From an uncultured Flavobacteriales bacterium (GTDB lineage: Bacteria; Bacteroidota; Bacteroidia; Flavobacteriales_D; Sanyastnellaceae): a stretch of 10,079 nucleotides of DNA. Below, one piece after another: positions 550 to 8,496 of the stretch. The position numbers and the translations under genes were made by a program. The notes beneath the pieces were generated by a model. That model worked only from the letters and a program-made list of their open reading frames with translations. It was not told the origin of the DNA and made no database searches. The stretch is taken from assembly GCA_913057815.1 (NCBI GenBank), contig CAJXOV010000044.1, forward strand, positions 1 to 10,079, read 5' to 3'. Within the stretch, counting starts at the first letter, position 1; the number at the start of each line of letters is the position of its first letter.

Positions 550-1821
550 ATGAAAAAACAGATTTATCTACTGATCTCTCTCTTCATATTCTTATTTTAC
601 TCGTGTAATCATAGTGATTCTAGTAAATTAGATTATGGGTCCAAGACAATTGAATTAATAAAAATTGTAGAAGAAAATCCAGAGATTAAGAGTCTTTTAT
701 TGGCTTCAATAGCGCAAGCCAAAGAAATAAATTCTGATAAGAAGACTAATCCAGCCCAAACATTAGAGGAGTATTACGAATTTGTTTCATGGACAGAAAA
801 TGTGATGCCTTGGCAATTTTTAGAAGTAGATTATGCAAATACGCTTTATGATAGGATTGATCAAAGTTTATGCTACTTTTTCTTTATAAATGATCAGCCA
901 ATAGAGGCGCTTGAAGGAAAGGGATACTTTAATAATTCTCTCCAATATCATGAGCCTTACAAATCTTGGCTAACGAGCTTCAATAGAACTTATGGCGAGT
1001 TTATGGATTCTGAGGACTCATGGAATAAAGAATATCACCAAATAGCTCTTGCAGATGGCATTTTTGGACTTGAAAATGATTGGTATGAAGATCATTCCAA
1101 TTGGAAGACTTTTAATCAGTTCTTTTCAAGGCATCTTAAATCTCTTGATAAAAGGCCAATAGCTGTGCCAGGTGATAATAAGGTAGTTATCTCTCCAGCT
1201 GATGCTCAGCCTCAAGGTGTGTGGGCCATAGACAGTACTTCTATGATAGTGGAGAAAGATGGGATTGCGGTAAAGTCAGGAACTTTATACGATGTTAAAA
1301 ATCTCCTTGGAAATGAAAGCGAATATGCGGATGCATTTGCCAATGGTACGTTTACACATTCATTTTTAGATGTAGGTGACTACCATCGTTATCATTTCCC
1401 GTTGGGTGGTGTAGTGAAAGAAATGGGTATTATTTCAGGTGAAAGTGTCTCAGGAGGCTATACTACCTGGGATCCTGTGAATAAGAGATATAAATTTGAT
1501 GCTTCATCAGTCGCTTGGCAAGCCATTGAAACAAGAGGATGTGTGATTTTGGAGACTGAAGAATATGGGTTAGTTGCATTGTTACCTATTGGTATGTGGC
1601 CAGTTTCTTCTGTTAATTTTAAAGATGATTTACATGTTGGTAGCCAGGTTTCAAAAGGTGATGAGTTAGGTCACTTCTTATTTGGAGGCTCTGATTTTAT
1701 AACGATTTTTCAAGATAAGGCACAATTTGTTTTGGAGGCTCCAAAGAAGGAGAACAGTGATTCATACCAGCATCAACTTATGGGAGAACGATTAGGTTCT
1801 CTAGGGAATAATAACAACTAG
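550..1821 (+). CDS. Lipoprotein phosphatidylserine decarboxylase-family (PsiD-like) pyruvoyl enzyme
   Basis: The 423-residue product starts with a lipoprotein signal peptide (KK, hydrophobic core, FYSC with Cys19 as the acylation site). Residues about 70-190 resemble the N-terminal extension (PSDC-type) of decarboxylases such as fungal PsiD. The catalytic domain follows: FFSRHLK...RP at 191-203, SPAD with Asp218, SFLDVGDYHRYHFPLGG at 271-287 with His279 and His282, and FGGSD at 378-382. In the family, a proenzyme cleaves itself between Gly and Ser (here Gly380/Ser381) to make the pyruvoyl group, and the Asp/His/Ser set (D90, H144/H147, S254 in E. coli Psd) is conserved here, so the enzyme looks active. 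Canonical Psd makes phosphatidylethanolamine on the cytoplasmic face of the inner membrane; this one would be exported. The N-terminal extension points more to an amino acid (possibly aromatic) decarboxylase than to a lipid enzyme, but the substrate cannot be read from sequence. It probably shares a transcript with the DUF6090-like gene. Confidence 0.88.
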   Translation: MKKQIYLLISLFIFLFYSCNHSDSSKLDYGSKTIELIKIVEENPEIKSLLLASIAQAKEINSDKKTNPAQTLEEYYEFVSWTENVMPWQFLEVDYANTLYDRIDQSLCYFFFINDQPIEALEGKGYFNNSLQYHEPYKSWLTSFNRTYGEFMDSEDSWNKEYHQIALADGIFGLENDWYEDHSNWKTFNQFFSRHLKSLDKRPIAVPGDNKVVISPADAQPQGVWAIDSTSMIVEKDGIAVKSGTLYDVKNLLGNESEYADAFANGTFTHSFLDVGDYHRYHFPLGGVVKEMGIISGESVSGGYTTWDPVNKRYKFDASSVAWQAIETRGCVILETEEYGLVALLPIGMWPVSSVNFKDDLHVGSQVSKGDELGHFLFGGSDFITIFQDKAQFVLEAPKKENSDSYQHQLMGERLGSLGNNNN

Positions 1822-2488: not shown

Positions 2489-4618
2489 ATGAAACTATTA
2501 TTGCTGGCTATCTCTTTTGGTTTTTTTTCAGAAAACGTTCTAAGTCAAGAGCTGTTTTTATCTGAAATATTAGACAATCCAAAGAAGTATGGAGAGCCAA
2601 TCGAAAACTCGCTTCCTAAAAACGAAGTTCCTGAATTATTGAATTCTCTAGAAGAGGGAACCTTTTTTTTGAAAAATGGTTTAAGAAGTTCAAAGTATTT
2701 AAATGCTGATGAGTGGATTCGAATTAAGGATAGCGTAACTGTTTCTAATATCTATGTAGCATTCTCTAAATATCCTATTAAAAGAGGAAAGTACTCCATG
2801 AAGCATGACCTGTTATTCAATAGGTTAAAGAACCTATTTATAATAGATTCAGAGTTAAACTCTATAGATATTAATTATGAAATAATCTTGCAAACTAATT
2901 GCATTTCTGATGGACAAGTTGATAGCCTTTTTCATGGAATTATTATAGAATATGAGTCGATAGATGAAAAGGAATTAGAAACAGAAAAGAAGGCGAAGTC
3001 AGCAACCGATTTAGCTTATCATGGAAATTCCATGAGCGCTTCTGAGTTAAAAAATGCTATTGAGATGTTTGAGAGTTTGCCTAAAGATCTTAAATCATCT
3101 TTGGACTCTTTAGAGTCAGATTCTCAGCTGGTTATTTTAGAAGAATATTTTGAAGAGAAGCTCTTAGAGTCTGGAGAAAGAAGAGAAAATTCATTTTCCG
3201 AAAAAAGGAAAAAAGTGTTAGAAGGAAAGGTGAATTCGTTTCTTAGGATTTATGGAGGTCTACGTGATAGTACTACATATAAAGTTTTAGAAAGAAATCA
3301 GGATTGGGAGAACTCATTGGTGGTGTCGGATTGGACTGGGAGTATTTACGGTTATGGAGCTCAGGCTCTTCAGTGGCATGTCAATCATTTAGAAACTTCA
3401 GGATTGAGTTATTTCACGCTATTTAATGATGGTGATAATACCTCTACTGGAAGAAAGATGATAGGTGCTACAGAGGGGATTTATCATGCTCAGGCAAATC
3501 AAATTGACAAATTAATTCAACTCTATCAATTGGTAATGTTGAAAGGAGGTGGAGGAGATGGGCCTGAAAATGATTTGGAGGCGGTACTAGCAGGAATGGA
3601 GGAGTTTCCAGAGTATGGTGAAATAATTCTCATAGCAGATAACAATGCATGTGTAAGAGATATTGAGTTACTGGAATATATAGATAAACCGGTGCGTGTA
3701 GTGCTTTGTGGTTATAAAAGTATATGGGGAGTTAATCCACAATATATAGAAATAGCAGAACAAACAGGCGGTTCTATCCATACTATGGAGGAAGACCTAA
3801 CTGAATTTAATTATGAAGTAGTTAAAAAGAGAACAGGGAAGAAAAGAATAGTAGGAAGTGAGCTGAAAATAGGTAAAAAGCCATGCTCAGATAAAGCTAT
3901 AAGTGTAGTTAGAGACTATGGTCATGTATATATGGATTTGGATTCTGCTAAGCAGGATAAATGGATAGTTAACAAAGTTTCATTATCAGGAAAAGGCCTT
4001 AGTAAGGTTCCTGGAAAAATCAAAAAGTTGAAGGTTATCAACTCTTTAGATTTAAGTAATAATAACTTACAAAAATTGAATAATAATCTACTGAAATGTA
4101 TAACGCTAAGAGAATTGAATTTGTCGAATAATCAAATTTCTGAACTTCCTGTAAAAATGGGTAAACTACATCTTCTCAAACATTTAGATTTAAGTTCGAA
4201 TAAGTTCGATACATTATCTTATAGGGCAATAAATCAGTTGAAATTTTTAAAAACACTTAATCTATCAGATAACTCTCTATCCGAATTACCAAAATCTTTT
4301 TCGTCTAAATACTTGGAGGTGTTTGATCTAAGCCAAAATGAGCTAACTGAATTGCCAGCTAAACTCACTAGCTGCAGAAGGCTTAAGAAATTATACTTAA
4401 ATGATAATCAACTAAATAGTCTACCTAGAAGATTCAGCAAGTTGAAGCATATAGAGGAATTAGATATTTCTTTTAATGAATTAACTGATTTACCATCTTC
4501 TCTCTTTAAGCTGAAAAAGCTTAGGTTATTAAACATTAGCGGTAATGAGTTTTCCGATGAATACATTAAAGAAATCAAAGCCAAATTACCCGAAACAATT
4601 ATCGAAGTTGAAAATTAA
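2489..4618 (+). CDS. Secreted VWA-like domain plus leucine-rich repeat protein
   Basis: The 709-residue product has an N-terminal signal peptide (about 1-20, ending VLSQ) with no lipobox Cys. Residues 20-260 are a charged region of unknown fold, rich in Glu/Lys/Ser and partly coiled-coil-like (about 150-250). Residues 275-430 look like a von Willebrand factor A domain: VVSDWTGSIYG with D281, T283 and S285 in place of the DxSxS metal site, the GGGGDGPEND loop at 353-362 followed by a helix, then the strand EIILIADN (D384) and the strand VRVVLCG. About nine leucine-rich repeats of 22-24 residues fill 497-695, the tail ending soon after, without a type IX sorting domain or membrane anchor. VWA and LRR domains both bind proteins, so a role in adhesion or in assembling an extracytoplasmic complex is plausible. 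The gene is preceded by a 118-base non-coding stretch, with a weak promoter candidate (TTG at 2426-2428, TAATTTC at 2445-2451), so it is likely its own transcription unit. Confidence 0.85.
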   Translation: MKLLLLAISFGFFSENVLSQELFLSEILDNPKKYGEPIENSLPKNEVPELLNSLEEGTFFLKNGLRSSKYLNADEWIRIKDSVTVSNIYVAFSKYPIKRGKYSMKHDLLFNRLKNLFIIDSELNSIDINYEIILQTNCISDGQVDSLFHGIIIEYESIDEKELETEKKAKSATDLAYHGNSMSASELKNAIEMFESLPKDLKSSLDSLESDSQLVILEEYFEEKLLESGERRENSFSEKRKKVLEGKVNSFLRIYGGLRDSTTYKVLERNQDWENSLVVSDWTGSIYGYGAQALQWHVNHLETSGLSYFTLFNDGDNTSTGRKMIGATEGIYHAQANQIDKLIQLYQLVMLKGGGGDGPENDLEAVLAGMEEFPEYGEIILIADNNACVRDIELLEYIDKPVRVVLCGYKSIWGVNPQYIEIAEQTGGSIHTMEEDLTEFNYEVVKKRTGKKRIVGSELKIGKKPCSDKAISVVRDYGHVYMDLDSAKQDKWIVNKVSLSGKGLSKVPGKIKKLKVINSLDLSNNNLQKLNNNLLKCITLRELNLSNNQISELPVKMGKLHLLKHLDLSSNKFDTLSYRAINQLKFLKTLNLSDNSLSELPKSFSSKYLEVFDLSQNELTELPAKLTSCRRLKKLYLNDNQLNSLPRRFSKLKHIEELDISFNELTDLPSSLFKLKKLRLLNISGNEFSDEYIKEIKAKLPETIIEVEN
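3977..4573 (+). repeat. Leucine-rich repeat coding array (about 9 units)
   Basis: Within the VWA-LRR gene, residues about 497-695 repeat the pattern LxxLxLSxNxLxxLPxxxxxLxx. Recognisable units begin near INSLDLSNNNL, LRELNLSNNQI, LKHLDLSSNKF, LKTLNLSDNSL, LEVFDLSQNEL, LKKLYLNDNQL, IEELDISFNEL and LRLLNISGNEF, with a degenerate first unit (VSLSGKGL). The LP after most units is the bacterial/Ras-group type. The units have diverged at the DNA level, so this is an old array rather than a recent tandem expansion. Confidence 0.9.
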
Positions 4619-4689: not shown

Positions 4690-5400
4690 TTACAGCTGAA
4701 TTAGTTCTCCATCTCCAGAGTCTTCGATTTCTATAATGTTGACAGGTGAAGAGTGTAGAATTACATCACCCACATCTAAAATGCTGTATTCTAATCGCTC
4801 AGTAGGAGAGATGTCTATGTTTCCTTTGGATCCGTTTTCTATTAAAGCCACATCTGTAGTTAGTGATTTGGCGTCTACAGACATTAGTGCATGATTCCAG
4901 ATTTTGGTAACTCCACTTTGTCCTGTTATGGTTAGTTTTCCTCCAGCAGGTTGATTATTCCAATAGTAAAACGTACCACAGTCCAGTTCTAAATTGGCCT
5001 CGTTTACTTTGCTCTTAAGAACAATGCCGAATTCCTCAGATGTAATAGGATTAGCAGTAGATACAAAACCAGATTCTTCAACTTCCACTAAACTCAACGG
5101 ATGAGAATAAATGTGCAATTCGATTTCATTTTTATGTGGATTAGCCCACCCTGAGGATTTATCGTTTCTAATTTCTAAGATGCTGTCATTAATAGAAAAC
5201 TTAACAAATTCCTGTCTTGATTTAGCTGTTGTTATTTCTATTCTAAACTCTTCAGATTCATGAAGAAAGGTAGTAAACGAATCAAATAGTTTGATGTGGT
5301 TAAACGATTCTAAATCATGAGATTCTGTTGTTTTGTTGCCGTCTTTAGTGCAACTTAAAACTAAAAGGGAAATACAGATAAAAAGTGCTGATTTTCTCAT
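4690..5400 (-). CDS. DUF2807 (head-GIN domain) lipoprotein
   Basis: The 236-residue product has a lipoprotein signal peptide (MRKSALFICISLLVLSC, Cys17), followed by TKDG, which partly resembles a Bacteroidota surface-export signal (Lys then acidic right after the Cys). The mature part opens with FNHIKLFDSFTTFLHESEE and LEIRND, matching the DUF2807 pattern 'F..I.v.....v.l..g' ending in 'L.I'. The rest is short repeating strands (LVEVEESGFVS, LTITGQSGVTK, NIIEIEDSGDGEL) as expected for the right-handed beta-solenoid of this family. Family members are common in Bacteroidota and their function is unknown; the 'auto-transporter adhesin' label is only a putative database name. It starts 3 bases after the stop of the PagL-like gene, so the two are very likely one operon and translationally linked. 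Confidence 0.85.
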   Translation of the reverse strand: MRKSALFICISLLVLSCTKDGNKTTESHDLESFNHIKLFDSFTTFLHESEEFRIEITTAKSRQEFVKFSINDSILEIRNDKSSGWANPHKNEIELHIYSHPLSLVEVEESGFVSTANPITSEEFGIVLKSKVNEANLELDCGTFYYWNNQPAGGKLTITGQSGVTKIWNHALMSVDAKSLTTDVALIENGSKGNIDISPTERLEYSILDVGDVILHSSPVNIIEIEDSGDGELIQL

Positions 5401-5403
5401 TTT

Positions 5404-6501
5404 CTACAGTTTTATACCTATTCCAAATTCAGGATAATCCAGCACCACTAAGTGTGATTTCATGGCTACTCTAACCCAAGTTTTATCTGAGATTTGGTAT
5501 CGAATTATTCCACGATTATACATGGGTTTTTCCTCTATGTTTTCTTTTAGTCCTATGTAAAAACCTTCTTGTAAACTGAGACTAAATTTCCTGTACCTAA
5601 GAGTTTGACTCATGTGAATTCCGGTTTGAAAGTCATAGATAGATTTATATTCTTTTCCTTTTTCAAGTAATTGAGTCTCTTGAGAAGAATCGTAGAAAAT
5701 ATCAGCTCCTAATCCTAAATGTAAAGCTCTCCAGACCGAACGTTCCGCTTCAAAAGCTAAAGATGAGGTAAGGAAGTAACCTGAAGACAAAGACCTAGTA
5801 GCTTTTCCTCCAATGCTTCCAAAAAGAGAATAAACATTCTTTCGTTCATGCGGGCTAAGAGCGGTAGTGATTCGGATGGAACGTTTTCCTAACCTGTAGT
5901 TTACTCCGACATATCCAGTAAGGTAGTTTAACCCTAAATTCGGCTCGGCTGTGTTTCCGTTTGAAAAGTGATCGAATGAAAGTCCTCCATCTAGCTCAAG
6001 TTTTTCAGTGATTTCATAGTCGGCACCCCATCGCATATTGAAGTGCACATTAAGATTAGATCCTACAGCTACATTTTGGTAGTTATCTATCAAGTCAAAT
6101 TTTTGGTTGACATAACTAAGCCCTATTCCCGTACGATTATAAAAATTGAATTTGTTTTTATTGATAAGGTCAATTTTAAAGAAATAGGTGAGGGCTAATT
6201 CTCTTCCAAAAATGTCGTCATTTCCTAGTGAAGAATAAAATAATGAAATTCCACAGGAAGGGTAATTAAAGAGTCTTTCCCATTCATTTTTTCCCATAGA
6301 CTCCTTAGAGAAGTTCACATCTATAGAACGGATGTAATCATTTGTATAAAAGGATATAAACTGATATTCAGGAAGATTCCAACCTAAATGAGAGTTTATT
6401 CCTAGCTGAGTGTCTTTAAAAAAAGAAGACTGACTACTACTGGAAGTGCTGCATCCTAGAAGGATAACAGCCAAAATGATATAAGTGCGAAGTGAATTCA
6501 A
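5404..6501 (-). CDS. PagL-like acyloxyacyl hydrolase, outer-membrane beta-barrel
   Basis: The 365-residue product has an N-terminal signal peptide and many amphipathic strands ending in a C-terminal aromatic/Leu strand (YPEFGIGIKL), as in an outer-membrane barrel. Residues 174-203 read LSFDHFSNGNT...PNLGLNYLTGYVGVNYR; the H-x-S-N motif (His178, Ser180, Asn181) and the following PNxGxN match lipid A 3-O-deacylases (PagL, PF09411), which remove an acyl chain from lipid A. The Glu that completes the P. aeruginosa triad (12 residues after Ser128) falls at Asn192 here, so activity is not assured. The barrel is about twice the length of PagL, with a C-terminal region (205-365) of unclear role. The start is a TTG; upstream frame reaches a TAG at 6519-6517 with no ATG, and the next Met is at residue 69, so TTG is the best start. 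The signal also contains LLGC (Cys17), so lipidation is possible. Confidence 0.8.
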   Translation of the reverse strand: MNSLRTYIILAVILLGCSTSSSSQSSFFKDTQLGINSHLGWNLPEYQFISFYTNDYIRSIDVNFSKESMGKNEWERLFNYPSCGISLFYSSLGNDDIFGRELALTYFFKIDLINKNKFNFYNRTGIGLSYVNQKFDLIDNYQNVAVGSNLNVHFNMRWGADYEITEKLELDGGLSFDHFSNGNTAEPNLGLNYLTGYVGVNYRLGKRSIRITTALSPHERKNVYSLFGSIGGKATRSLSSGYFLTSSLAFEAERSVWRALHLGLGADIFYDSSQETQLLEKGKEYKSIYDFQTGIHMSQTLRYRKFSLSLQEGFYIGLKENIEEKPMYNRGIIRYQISDKTWVRVAMKSHLVVLDYPEFGIGIKL

Positions 6502-6582: not shown

Positions 6583-7860
6583 TTAATTAAGCACAGCATT
6601 ACTTTCAGCTAATACCGCATTAAAAGCATTAGAAATGTCGGTGATAAGATCATCTGAATTTTCTACACCAATTGAAAGTCTTACCAATTGTTCTGTGATG
6701 CCCAAATTCTGCTTGTGTTCTGGCTCTAAACCAATGTGGGTCATAGTGGCTGGATGCTGAGCTAAACTTTCTGTACCTCCTAAGCTTACCGCTAGTTTGA
6801 ATAAACTCAGATTATTAAGGAATACAAATGCTTCTTTTTCTCCGCCTTTTATGTAAAAAGAGATCATGGCTCCAGGAGCAGAATATTGCTTTTTATATAG
6901 GTCATATTCCTCTGTTCCTTTTTCAAGCAGCCCTAAATATGACACCTTATTCACCTCTTCATGAGTATTTAAGAAATTAGCCACTGCTTCAGCGTTTTTA
7001 GTTTGCTGATCCATTCTAACTTTTAGAGTTTCTAAACTTCTGGTTAATAACCAACATGTGTTTGGAGATGCCATGTTTCCTAAGAATGTTCTTAGCACTT
7101 TTACTCTTTGCATAAGGTCTGCATTTCCAAGCACTGCACCCGCTATTAAATCACTGTGTCCTCCGATATACTTAGTGGCAGAATACAACACTAAATCAGC
7201 TCCTAAGTCCAAGGGGTGACTCCAAAGTGGTCCCATATACGTGTTGTCCGTAGCTAAATACACTGGCTTTTCTTCAGTAGAAAAATGATCGGCTATTTCC
7301 TTACATTCACTTATATCTATAAGTTCATTAGTAGGGTTGGCAGGCGTTTCTATGTAAACCATAGCTAGTTTATCTGCTTTTCCAGTGTCTTTTATTAACT
7401 GTATTATTTCATCTTTAGATTGGTTAGGAGTGAAGCCCACTGCATGAACTCCTATTTTAGGTAGAAAATGATTTATAAAATGATCAGTTCCACCATACAC
7501 TGGAGAACTAAATAAAAGTAGGTCTCCAGGCTTTAAGAATTCTAAAAGAACTGTGCTGATAGCAGACATTCCGCTTTCGAAAACGGCACAGTCGTCAGCT
7601 TTATCCCATAAGCACAGTCTATTTTCTAAAATTTCTAGATTGGGATTGTTTATTCTGCTATAGATCAATCCTAATTCTTCTTCAGCCTCTTTGCTACGCA
7701 AACCGTAGGCAATTTCGAAAAATGCTTTTCCTTCCTCTGCGGTTTTAAACACGAAAGTAGATGTCTGAAATACAGGTGGTTTAATAGCGCCTTCTGATAA
7801 TTCTGGCTTATAGCCATGTGACATCATTAAACTCTCAGGGGAAAACTTAGGGTTACTCAT
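6583..7860 (-). CDS. PLP-dependent Cys/Met metabolism enzyme, methionine gamma-lyase-like
   Basis: The 425-residue product has the full set of family motifs (PF01053): YSR (67-69, phosphate contact from the neighbouring subunit), SGM at 96-98, VYGGT (121-125), IETPANPTN (170-178), D205 for the pyridine nitrogen, YSATKYIGGHSD with Lys230 as the PLP Schiff base, SLGGTESLAQHPATMTH (359-375) and RLSIGVE with Arg394. Such enzymes are cytosolic tetramers acting on methionine, cystathionine or homocysteine. LAQHPA-MTH and ETPANP favour methionine gamma-lyase (methionine to methanethiol, ammonia and 2-oxobutanoate). However, the Cys found in that enzyme (C116 of P. putida) is Gly124 here, as in cystathionine gamma-synthase/lyase, so substrate is unresolved. 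An insertion at about 48-64 before YSR is unusual for the best-known members. It faces a divergent Lrp-type regulator, an arrangement resembling mdeA/mdeR. ATG start, complete gene. Confidence 0.85.
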   Translation of the reverse strand: MSNPKFSPESLMMSHGYKPELSEGAIKPPVFQTSTFVFKTAEEGKAFFEIAYGLRSKEAEEELGLIYSRINNPNLEILENRLCLWDKADDCAVFESGMSAISTVLLEFLKPGDLLLFSSPVYGGTDHFINHFLPKIGVHAVGFTPNQSKDEIIQLIKDTGKADKLAMVYIETPANPTNELIDISECKEIADHFSTEEKPVYLATDNTYMGPLWSHPLDLGADLVLYSATKYIGGHSDLIAGAVLGNADLMQRVKVLRTFLGNMASPNTCWLLTRSLETLKVRMDQQTKNAEAVANFLNTHEEVNKVSYLGLLEKGTEEYDLYKKQYSAPGAMISFYIKGGEKEAFVFLNNLSLFKLAVSLGGTESLAQHPATMTHIGLEPEHKQNLGITEQLVRLSIGVENSDDLITDISNAFNAVLAESNAVLN

Positions 7861-8031: not shown

Positions 8032-8496
8032 ATGGAAAAGAATTTGGACAATACCGACCTCGAAATCATTAGAATCCTTCAGAAAAATGCCAAATCAACG
8101 ATAAAGGAACTGGCAGATGCACTCAACTTATCTAACACTCCAGTTTTTGACAGGATAAAACGGTTAGAAAAGTCAGGAGTCATAACAGGATATACAGCTT
8201 TAGTAAACAGGAGAAAGCTAGGATTGAATTTAATGGCTTTTTGTACACTTACTCTCAAGGGGCACAATGCTGAGTTTTTAAAGCAGTTTGAAACTGATGT
8301 AAACCTGCTTCCCGAAGTTATAGAGTGTTATCATTTGACAGGAAGTTTTGATTATCTCTTAAAAGTACTAGTGGGAGATATGGCCGATTATCAGGAGTTT
8401 GTGACTAAGAAACTTACTTCTTTGGCTAACATTGATCGAGTAACGAGTTCTTTTGTGCTTACTGAGTTGAAAAATGAGGCTGTGCTTCCTATTTAA
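8032..8496 (+). CDS. Lrp/AsnC family transcriptional regulator
   Basis: The 154-residue length is typical of the family. Residues 5-60 form the AsnC-type winged helix: LDNTDLEIIRILQKNAKS, then the helix-turn-helix with ELADALNLSNTPVFDRIKRLEKSGVI. Residues 65-148 form the RAM effector and oligomerisation domain, with the LTGSFDYLLKV loop (102-112) that binds amino acids in relatives. These proteins assemble as dimers to octamers and respond to leucine, methionine or other amino acids. It is divergent from the PLP lyase with a 171-base gap, so it most likely controls that gene and itself, with the lyase substrate as candidate effector. Upstream, TAATTTTA at 7985-7992 is a weak -7 candidate without a TTG partner. 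Confidence 0.95.
   Translation: MEKNLDNTDLEIIRILQKNAKSTIKELADALNLSNTPVFDRIKRLEKSGVITGYTALVNRRKLGLNLMAFCTLTLKGHNAEFLKQFETDVNLLPEVIECYHLTGSFDYLLKVLVGDMADYQEFVTKKLTSLANIDRVTSSFVLTELKNEAVLPI

Follow-up and report, generated by a model that had tools for sequence, protein, structure and literature searches.

A putatively exported protein of the pyruvoyl decarboxylase family in a Flavobacteriales contig: a candidate envelope amino-acid decarboxylase

The gene and its catalytic landmarks

The window analysed in this study is an entire 10,079-bp contig (C44) of an uncultured Flavobacteriales bacterium, whose genome assembly comprises 627 contigs and is 80% complete. It contains a gene for a protein of the pyruvoyl decarboxylase family that begins with an export signal and resembles, over its catalytic domain, the canonical phosphatidylserine decarboxylase (Psd). 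The gene and its parts are as follows.

550..1821, + strand: exported pyruvoyl-decarboxylase family gene; ATG start, 423 amino acids; PF02666 match at 5.6e-37
550..603, + strand: signal peptide, residues 1-18; read from the sequence, with an N-terminus of the same type in relatives
604..606, + strand: Cys19, proposed lipidated residue; read from the sequence, Cys in 178 of 224 aligned proteins
628..939, + strand: N-terminal helical domain, PSDC/PsiD-like, about residues 27-130; hhalign, fold match and weak PF12588 matches in relatives
1096..1806, + strand: PS_Dcarbxylase catalytic domain, about residues 183-419; PF02666 match and fold match
1201..1203, + strand: D218, catalytic Asp position; Asp in 224 of 224 aligned proteins
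1384..1395, + strand: H279-R-Y-H282 (H279 at 1384-1386, H282 at 1393-1395); both His in 224 of 224
1687..1692, + strand: G380/S381, self-cleavage site predicted from the family; S381 in 222 of 224
1693..1695, + strand: D382, directly after the putative pyruvoyl serine; Asp in 222 of 224 aligned proteins

In a Pfam profile search, PF02666 covered residues 188-416 with 127.8 bits against a cut-off of 22, and the only other match was a DUF at 0.085. An earlier note on this DNA had named D218, H279/H282 and GGS at 379-381 (encoded at 1684-1692) as landmarks of this family. Their positions were exact, the open reading frame (ORF) was present, and PF02666, one of the two profiles that the note had named, was matched. 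The protein belongs to the PF02666 superfamily, as the profile score lies above the curated cut-off and the Asp, the two His and the Gly-Ser cleavage site were all found. We assume that these residues play the same roles here as elsewhere in the superfamily. In the alignment, Thr stands at the position of D382 in the majority of the Psd and the bacterial PSDC rows; Asp also occurs in three non-exported relatives (L022-L024). The gene is under purifying selection, since dN was 0.13 and dS 2.1 and 1.6, near saturation, against two homologues that are 81% identical (L004 and L005).

Export signal, phylogenetic place and predicted fold

The N-terminus, MKKQIYLLISLFIFLFYSC, has a charged start and then a hydrophobic run that leads to Cys19, and the segment FYSC19 passed as a lipobox under our custom rule. 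All signal calls were made by this rule rather than by SignalP. A lipobox-like Cys after a hydrophobic run was found by the strict form of the rule in 115 of 121 proteins (P0001-P0121, which contain the query twice, as P0001 and P0002). The rule missed six: three proteins have long N-termini, two are truncated, and P0119 carries a signal of the Sec type. A looser rule, applied to the 224 proteins of both searches, called 172 lipoprotein-like, 37 Sec-like and four unclear. It assigned no signal to the other 11, of which several are evidently truncated. These sets were the best 120 of 2241 and the best 120 of 1620 matches and describe the near clade. The signal is not a chance feature, because relatives have one of the same kind, with its Cys, although the rest of their signal regions has diverged. 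Computation thus supports the lipoprotein signal proposed in the earlier note as a predicted export signal with Cys. A lipid anchor is not clade-wide, as the many Sec-like members lack the Cys: green-sulfur-type loci mostly have ends of the A-x-A type, and in L004 Phe replaces the lipobox Cys.

As a rule, surface-exposed lipoproteins of Bacteroidota carry an acidic export signal just after the Cys. The query has NHSDS at +2 to +6, with one acidic residue. Across the family, two or more acidic residues were found in only four of 118 proteins and none in 64. As acidic residues are so rare there, the lipoprotein may face the periplasm rather than the surface, if this rule applies. In several bacterial groups, relatives retain an export signal together with the active site; judged from sequence, this suggests a type of envelope decarboxylase that has received little notice.

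We built a tree from 43 chosen rows, 17 of them exported, with L031 left out. The exported clade was supported at 100/99, canonical Psd at 98/94 and PSDC/PsiD at 100/99, so the protein fell outside ordinary Psd, and the placement within cytoplasmic Psd by which the earlier note would have been refuted was not found. The exported proteins grouped with L022-L024 (99/93), and these together joined PSDC/PsiD (96/84). A second tree, which also left out the long rows L001, L055 and L035, gave the same groups, with 100/100 for both the exported clade and canonical Psd and 96/85 for the union of the exported proteins and L022-L024 with PSDC/PsiD. The exported clade is firm; its sister group, Psd or PsiD, is less so. 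The exported proteins have G-M as in PSDC/PsiD, where eight of ten Psd rows have G-A-T, and among the aligned rows G-G-S-D is common only to the exported proteins and L022-L024. The query missed the Psd equivalog cut-offs of the five NCBIfam models listed (93/371, 73.9/111.75, 69.3/307, 53.3/285 and 11.8/183 bits). One distant Psd-family relative outside the exported clade (L025, at L047:7303-8445) has a Sec-type signal of its own, and roughly 6 bp separate its start from a preceding DUF6090 gene; it is possibly a second, independent export event.

The earlier note had also described a PsiD-like N-terminal extension. By sequence this likeness is only half apparent: in the Pfam profile search the query itself was not matched by PF12588 at E<=1, and of 60 diverse relatives 14 had weak matches at E<=0.1, the best at 3.3e-5. 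The predicted fold matches PsiD across residues 27-379. All five PSDC controls from plasmids matched PF12588, and hhalign to five PF12588-bearing proteins began at residue 29. The predicted model has the full-length, two-part fold of the PSDC/PsiD type. With the first model, Foldseek returned one match at E<=0.001, PsiD; with a deeper model it returned 18, all of them PsiD, the Aspergillus enzyme or E. coli Psd.

Several known proteins resemble the query in part. To our knowledge, no bacterial export signal occurs on PsiD, the L-tryptophan decarboxylase of Psilocybe (PDB 8x4q, 8zia), which is 19-20% identical and has A-C-E where the query has its Asp motif. A pyruvoyl arginine decarboxylase of Aspergillus oryzae was reportedly described by Murakami in 2024; this fungal enzyme (PDB 9jer, 9jf5) also has the A-C-E motif and is 19% identical to the query. 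Canonical Psd (E. coli 7cnw; L001 of the same genome) shares the catalytic domain, the Asp, H-x-x-H and, in E. coli-type rows, the G-S site. However, it is a housekeeping enzyme of a separate clade with G-A-T instead of G-M in most rows, and the first ~115 residues of the query have no counterpart in it. ClsO, an outer-membrane lipoprotein cardiolipin synthase reported in 2026, resembles the query as an enzyme sited in the envelope as a lipoprotein, in its case one of lipid synthesis (PMC12846801), but it is another enzyme with another reaction, and its function was demonstrated experimentally whereas that of the query is predicted. The secreted PSD of Toxoplasma is also an exported family member, although eukaryotic and with a lipid substrate (PMC7949121); the view in the earlier note that known Psd enzymes face the cytoplasm was therefore too broad. 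The catalytic family is well established, and family members that decarboxylate amino acids are already known (PMC12603985, PMC12283126). Among the open-licence papers listed in our searches, no title or abstract opening described an exported bacterial Psd-family protein or clade.

Distribution and neighbourhood

The same genome has a second, 218-aa PF02666 protein (L001), whose gene adjoins a CTP_transf_1 (cdsA-type) gene. A second, short PF02666 match was present in all 16 other carriers tested, including one with a broken exported copy (G201); in G341 the open frame had 407 aa, and in the other 15 it had 214-257 aa. Only the short kind was present in three congeners that lack the exported gene, two of these genomes being incomplete (62% and 85%). 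Because the carriers hold a second short protein and the non-carrier congeners only the short kind, the exported protein is best read as an accessory paralogue beside a housekeeping-type Psd.

Within the phylum, 31 of 296 genomes had some match at E<=1e-10, and only 16 had the exported type (at least 53% identity): G000, G253 and 14 genomes that share a single green-sulfur-type genus code, with one broken copy. The class had two carriers among 395 genomes at E<=1e-60, our own included; the family of G253 had one among 294, G253 itself; and the family of G165 had 15 among 81 at E<=1e-10, one broken. Among 40 relatives, two matched at E<=1e-10, our own genome and one with a 35% match. The label green-sulfur-type refers to the FMO protein, which was found in 14 of the 15 genomes tested, the exception being G253. 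The truncated, stop-interrupted copy lies at L045:7651-8196 in the green-sulfur-type genome G201. The earlier note had set the protein in Bacteroidota, yet the clade extends further: source names include Flavobacteriales, Cyclobacteriaceae, Flavisolibacter, Terriglobales (Acidobacteriota), Steroidobacteraceae (Pseudomonadota) and Chthoniobacterales (Verrucomicrobiota), with relatives mostly from metagenome assemblies. This patchy distribution suggests horizontal transfer or frequent loss. A tblastn search of a plasmid collection gave 54 records, each below 60% identity (24-32% among the 20 matches listed). On a conjugative-typed Enterobacter plasmid (L052:1-2289), a PSDC-type decarboxylase gene lies 29 bp after a gene annotated as a basic amino acid/polyamine antiporter, and the two look as if they formed a decarboxylase-antiporter pair.

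Upstream of the exported gene, an ORF at 26-544 ends 5 bp before it; this ORF is truncated on its 5′ side, where the contig stops, and Pfam gave no match for it. Positions 1-43 of the window resemble an adapter, with AGATGTGTATAAGAGACAG at 24-42, which we take to be the Nextera transposase adapter. Because of this start, the beginning of the ORF (MCIRDR...) is probably artefactual, and the true upstream gene is incomplete. As a DUF6090 gene precedes the distant relative at L047, a DUF6090 protein was considered for this ORF, but BLASTP found no similarity. Downstream, a 455-aa ATPase and a 295-aa ORF are kept in three green-sulfur-type loci (L042, L043 and L045); neither L041 and L044 nor the remaining carriers that were inspected show this arrangement. 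A Cys/Met-metabolism enzyme dependent on pyridoxal phosphate (PLP), at 6583-7860 (-), is divergent from an Lrp/AsnC regulator at 8032-8496 (+). The PLP enzyme is 91% identical in the congener G298, where the divergent Lrp neighbour is kept, which makes a mis-binned contig unlikely; the G298 contig ends before the site where the exported gene would lie. The window also contains a 709-aa leucine-rich repeat protein at 2489-4618 (+), whose N-terminal part has no Pfam match and which was not found in three congeners by a search that had no positive-control match. A protein with a PagL-like lipid A deacylase domain at 5404-6501 (-) stands beside a DUF2807 protein with a lipoprotein-like start at 4690-5400 (-). 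Promoter and terminator scans of the window were at chance level, and it gave no Rfam match and no tRNA.

Substrate and alternatives

We propose that the pre-protein would be exported by Sec, then trimmed and lipidated at Cys19, and that the lipoprotein would sit on the periplasmic face of a membrane, probably the outer membrane. Once folded outside the cytoplasm, it would cleave itself between G380 and S381, assisted by D218 and the histidines. This cleavage would convert S381 into the pyruvoyl group of a 43-residue small chain, and no cofactor supply from the cytoplasm would be needed. A small soluble amino acid (or a similar amino-carboxylate) would then bind through its amine to the pyruvoyl group as a Schiff base, and release of CO2 would leave an amine. 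The reaction would resemble those of PsiD and the arginine decarboxylase from Aspergillus, with the envelope as its site. We put the probability that a small amino acid is the substrate at roughly 55%. It is favoured because of the shared architecture, the second Psd, the members without an anchor and the permease-type gene beside the plasmid PSDC relative.

Some observations weigh against this proposal. No amino-acid or amine domain was found in 15 immediate neighbours at eight carrier loci (L004, L005 and L040-L045, minus one L045 neighbour; farther ORFs were read by eye). The PLP enzyme/Lrp pair of the window lies about 4.8 kb off and is retained in a congener without the exported gene. Other points favour a lipid substrate. 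Position 218 is Asp in ten of ten Psd rows, within P-A-D in seven of them, and the query has S-P-A-D-A there, whereas all ten PSDC/PsiD rows (PsiD, the Aspergillus enzyme and eight bacterial PSDC rows) have A-C-E with Glu. In structural alignments, the query is 27-28% identical to E. coli Psd and 19-20% to PsiD or the Aspergillus enzyme, and an E. coli-like S-L-Q-Y-x-x-P stretch is kept in the profile, in a helix at 130-140.

These features would suit an envelope phosphatidylserine decarboxylase, which would turn phosphatidylserine (the cell's own, mislocalised or from other cells) into phosphatidylethanolamine at the periplasmic or outer face, with a siting like that of ClsO. A sister relation to Psd is compatible with the approximately unbiased (AU) test, for which the groups were named after inspection of the tree: the exported proteins, L022-L024 and Psd on one side of a branch were not rejected (P = 0.149), and the exported proteins with Psd alone gave P = 0.050. 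A lipid anchor would also take the enzyme to membranes, and ClsO, as exported phospholipid synthesis, and the Toxoplasma enzyme are precedents. However, a canonical-type Psd already exists in this genome and in every other carrier tested, the predicted full-length fold is that of an amino-acid decarboxylase, many clade members lack the Cys and hence the anchor, and all five listed NCBIfam Psd models stayed under their cut-offs. We consider this alternative less likely than the amino-acid proposal; it is the strongest of the three.

It is improbable that the export signal is mispredicted and that the protein is an ordinary Psd-family enzyme of the cytoplasm or inner membrane whose N-terminus forms a membrane helix. 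Hydrophobic N-terminal segments are possible in Psd-family proteins, and outside the clade our rule called L025 and L033 'Sec' and L031 and L056 'unclear'. It also called the canonical-type L001 a lipoprotein, which we took as a false call on two hydrophobic segments in succession; this call and that of L033 count against export. The rule thus has its faults, and more weight falls on the conservation seen throughout the clade: divergent sequences share one short hydrophobic run, a polar linker and the Cys, and Cys-less members end in the A-x-A type instead. The nearest non-exported relatives L022-L024 and the five plasmid PSDC proteins have no such signal, and the call was 'none' for L022-L024, L026-L028, L030, L032, L034-L037 and L048-L055. 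Least probable is an exported enzyme for another envelope amino-carboxylate, neither a free amino acid nor phosphatidylserine: the occurrence of GGSD rather than GGST next to the pyruvoyl serine may reflect a different pocket, but a pyruvoyl Schiff base requires a free amine next to a carboxylate, which argues against N-acylated amino-acid lipids.

Under the amino-acid proposal, it is conceivable, at somewhat under even odds, that pyruvoyl enzymes of a clade spanning several phyla have left the cytoplasm, either as lipoproteins or as proteins of the periplasm, and make amines from amino acids in the envelope, where PLP-dependent decarboxylases do not reach, and that the self-made cofactor enabled this move; the limited supply of PLP outside the cytoplasm, which the earlier note put forward, would be its inferred rationale. 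Where given, the source annotation is 'phosphatidylserine decarboxylase (precursor)', and because of it these proteins are read as housekeeping lipid enzymes. The evidence says instead that they appear to be an extra, exported paralogue. If active, this paralogue would provide a PLP-free envelope route to amines or phosphatidylethanolamine, and, together with ClsO, it would exemplify metabolic enzymes that sit in the envelope as lipoproteins.
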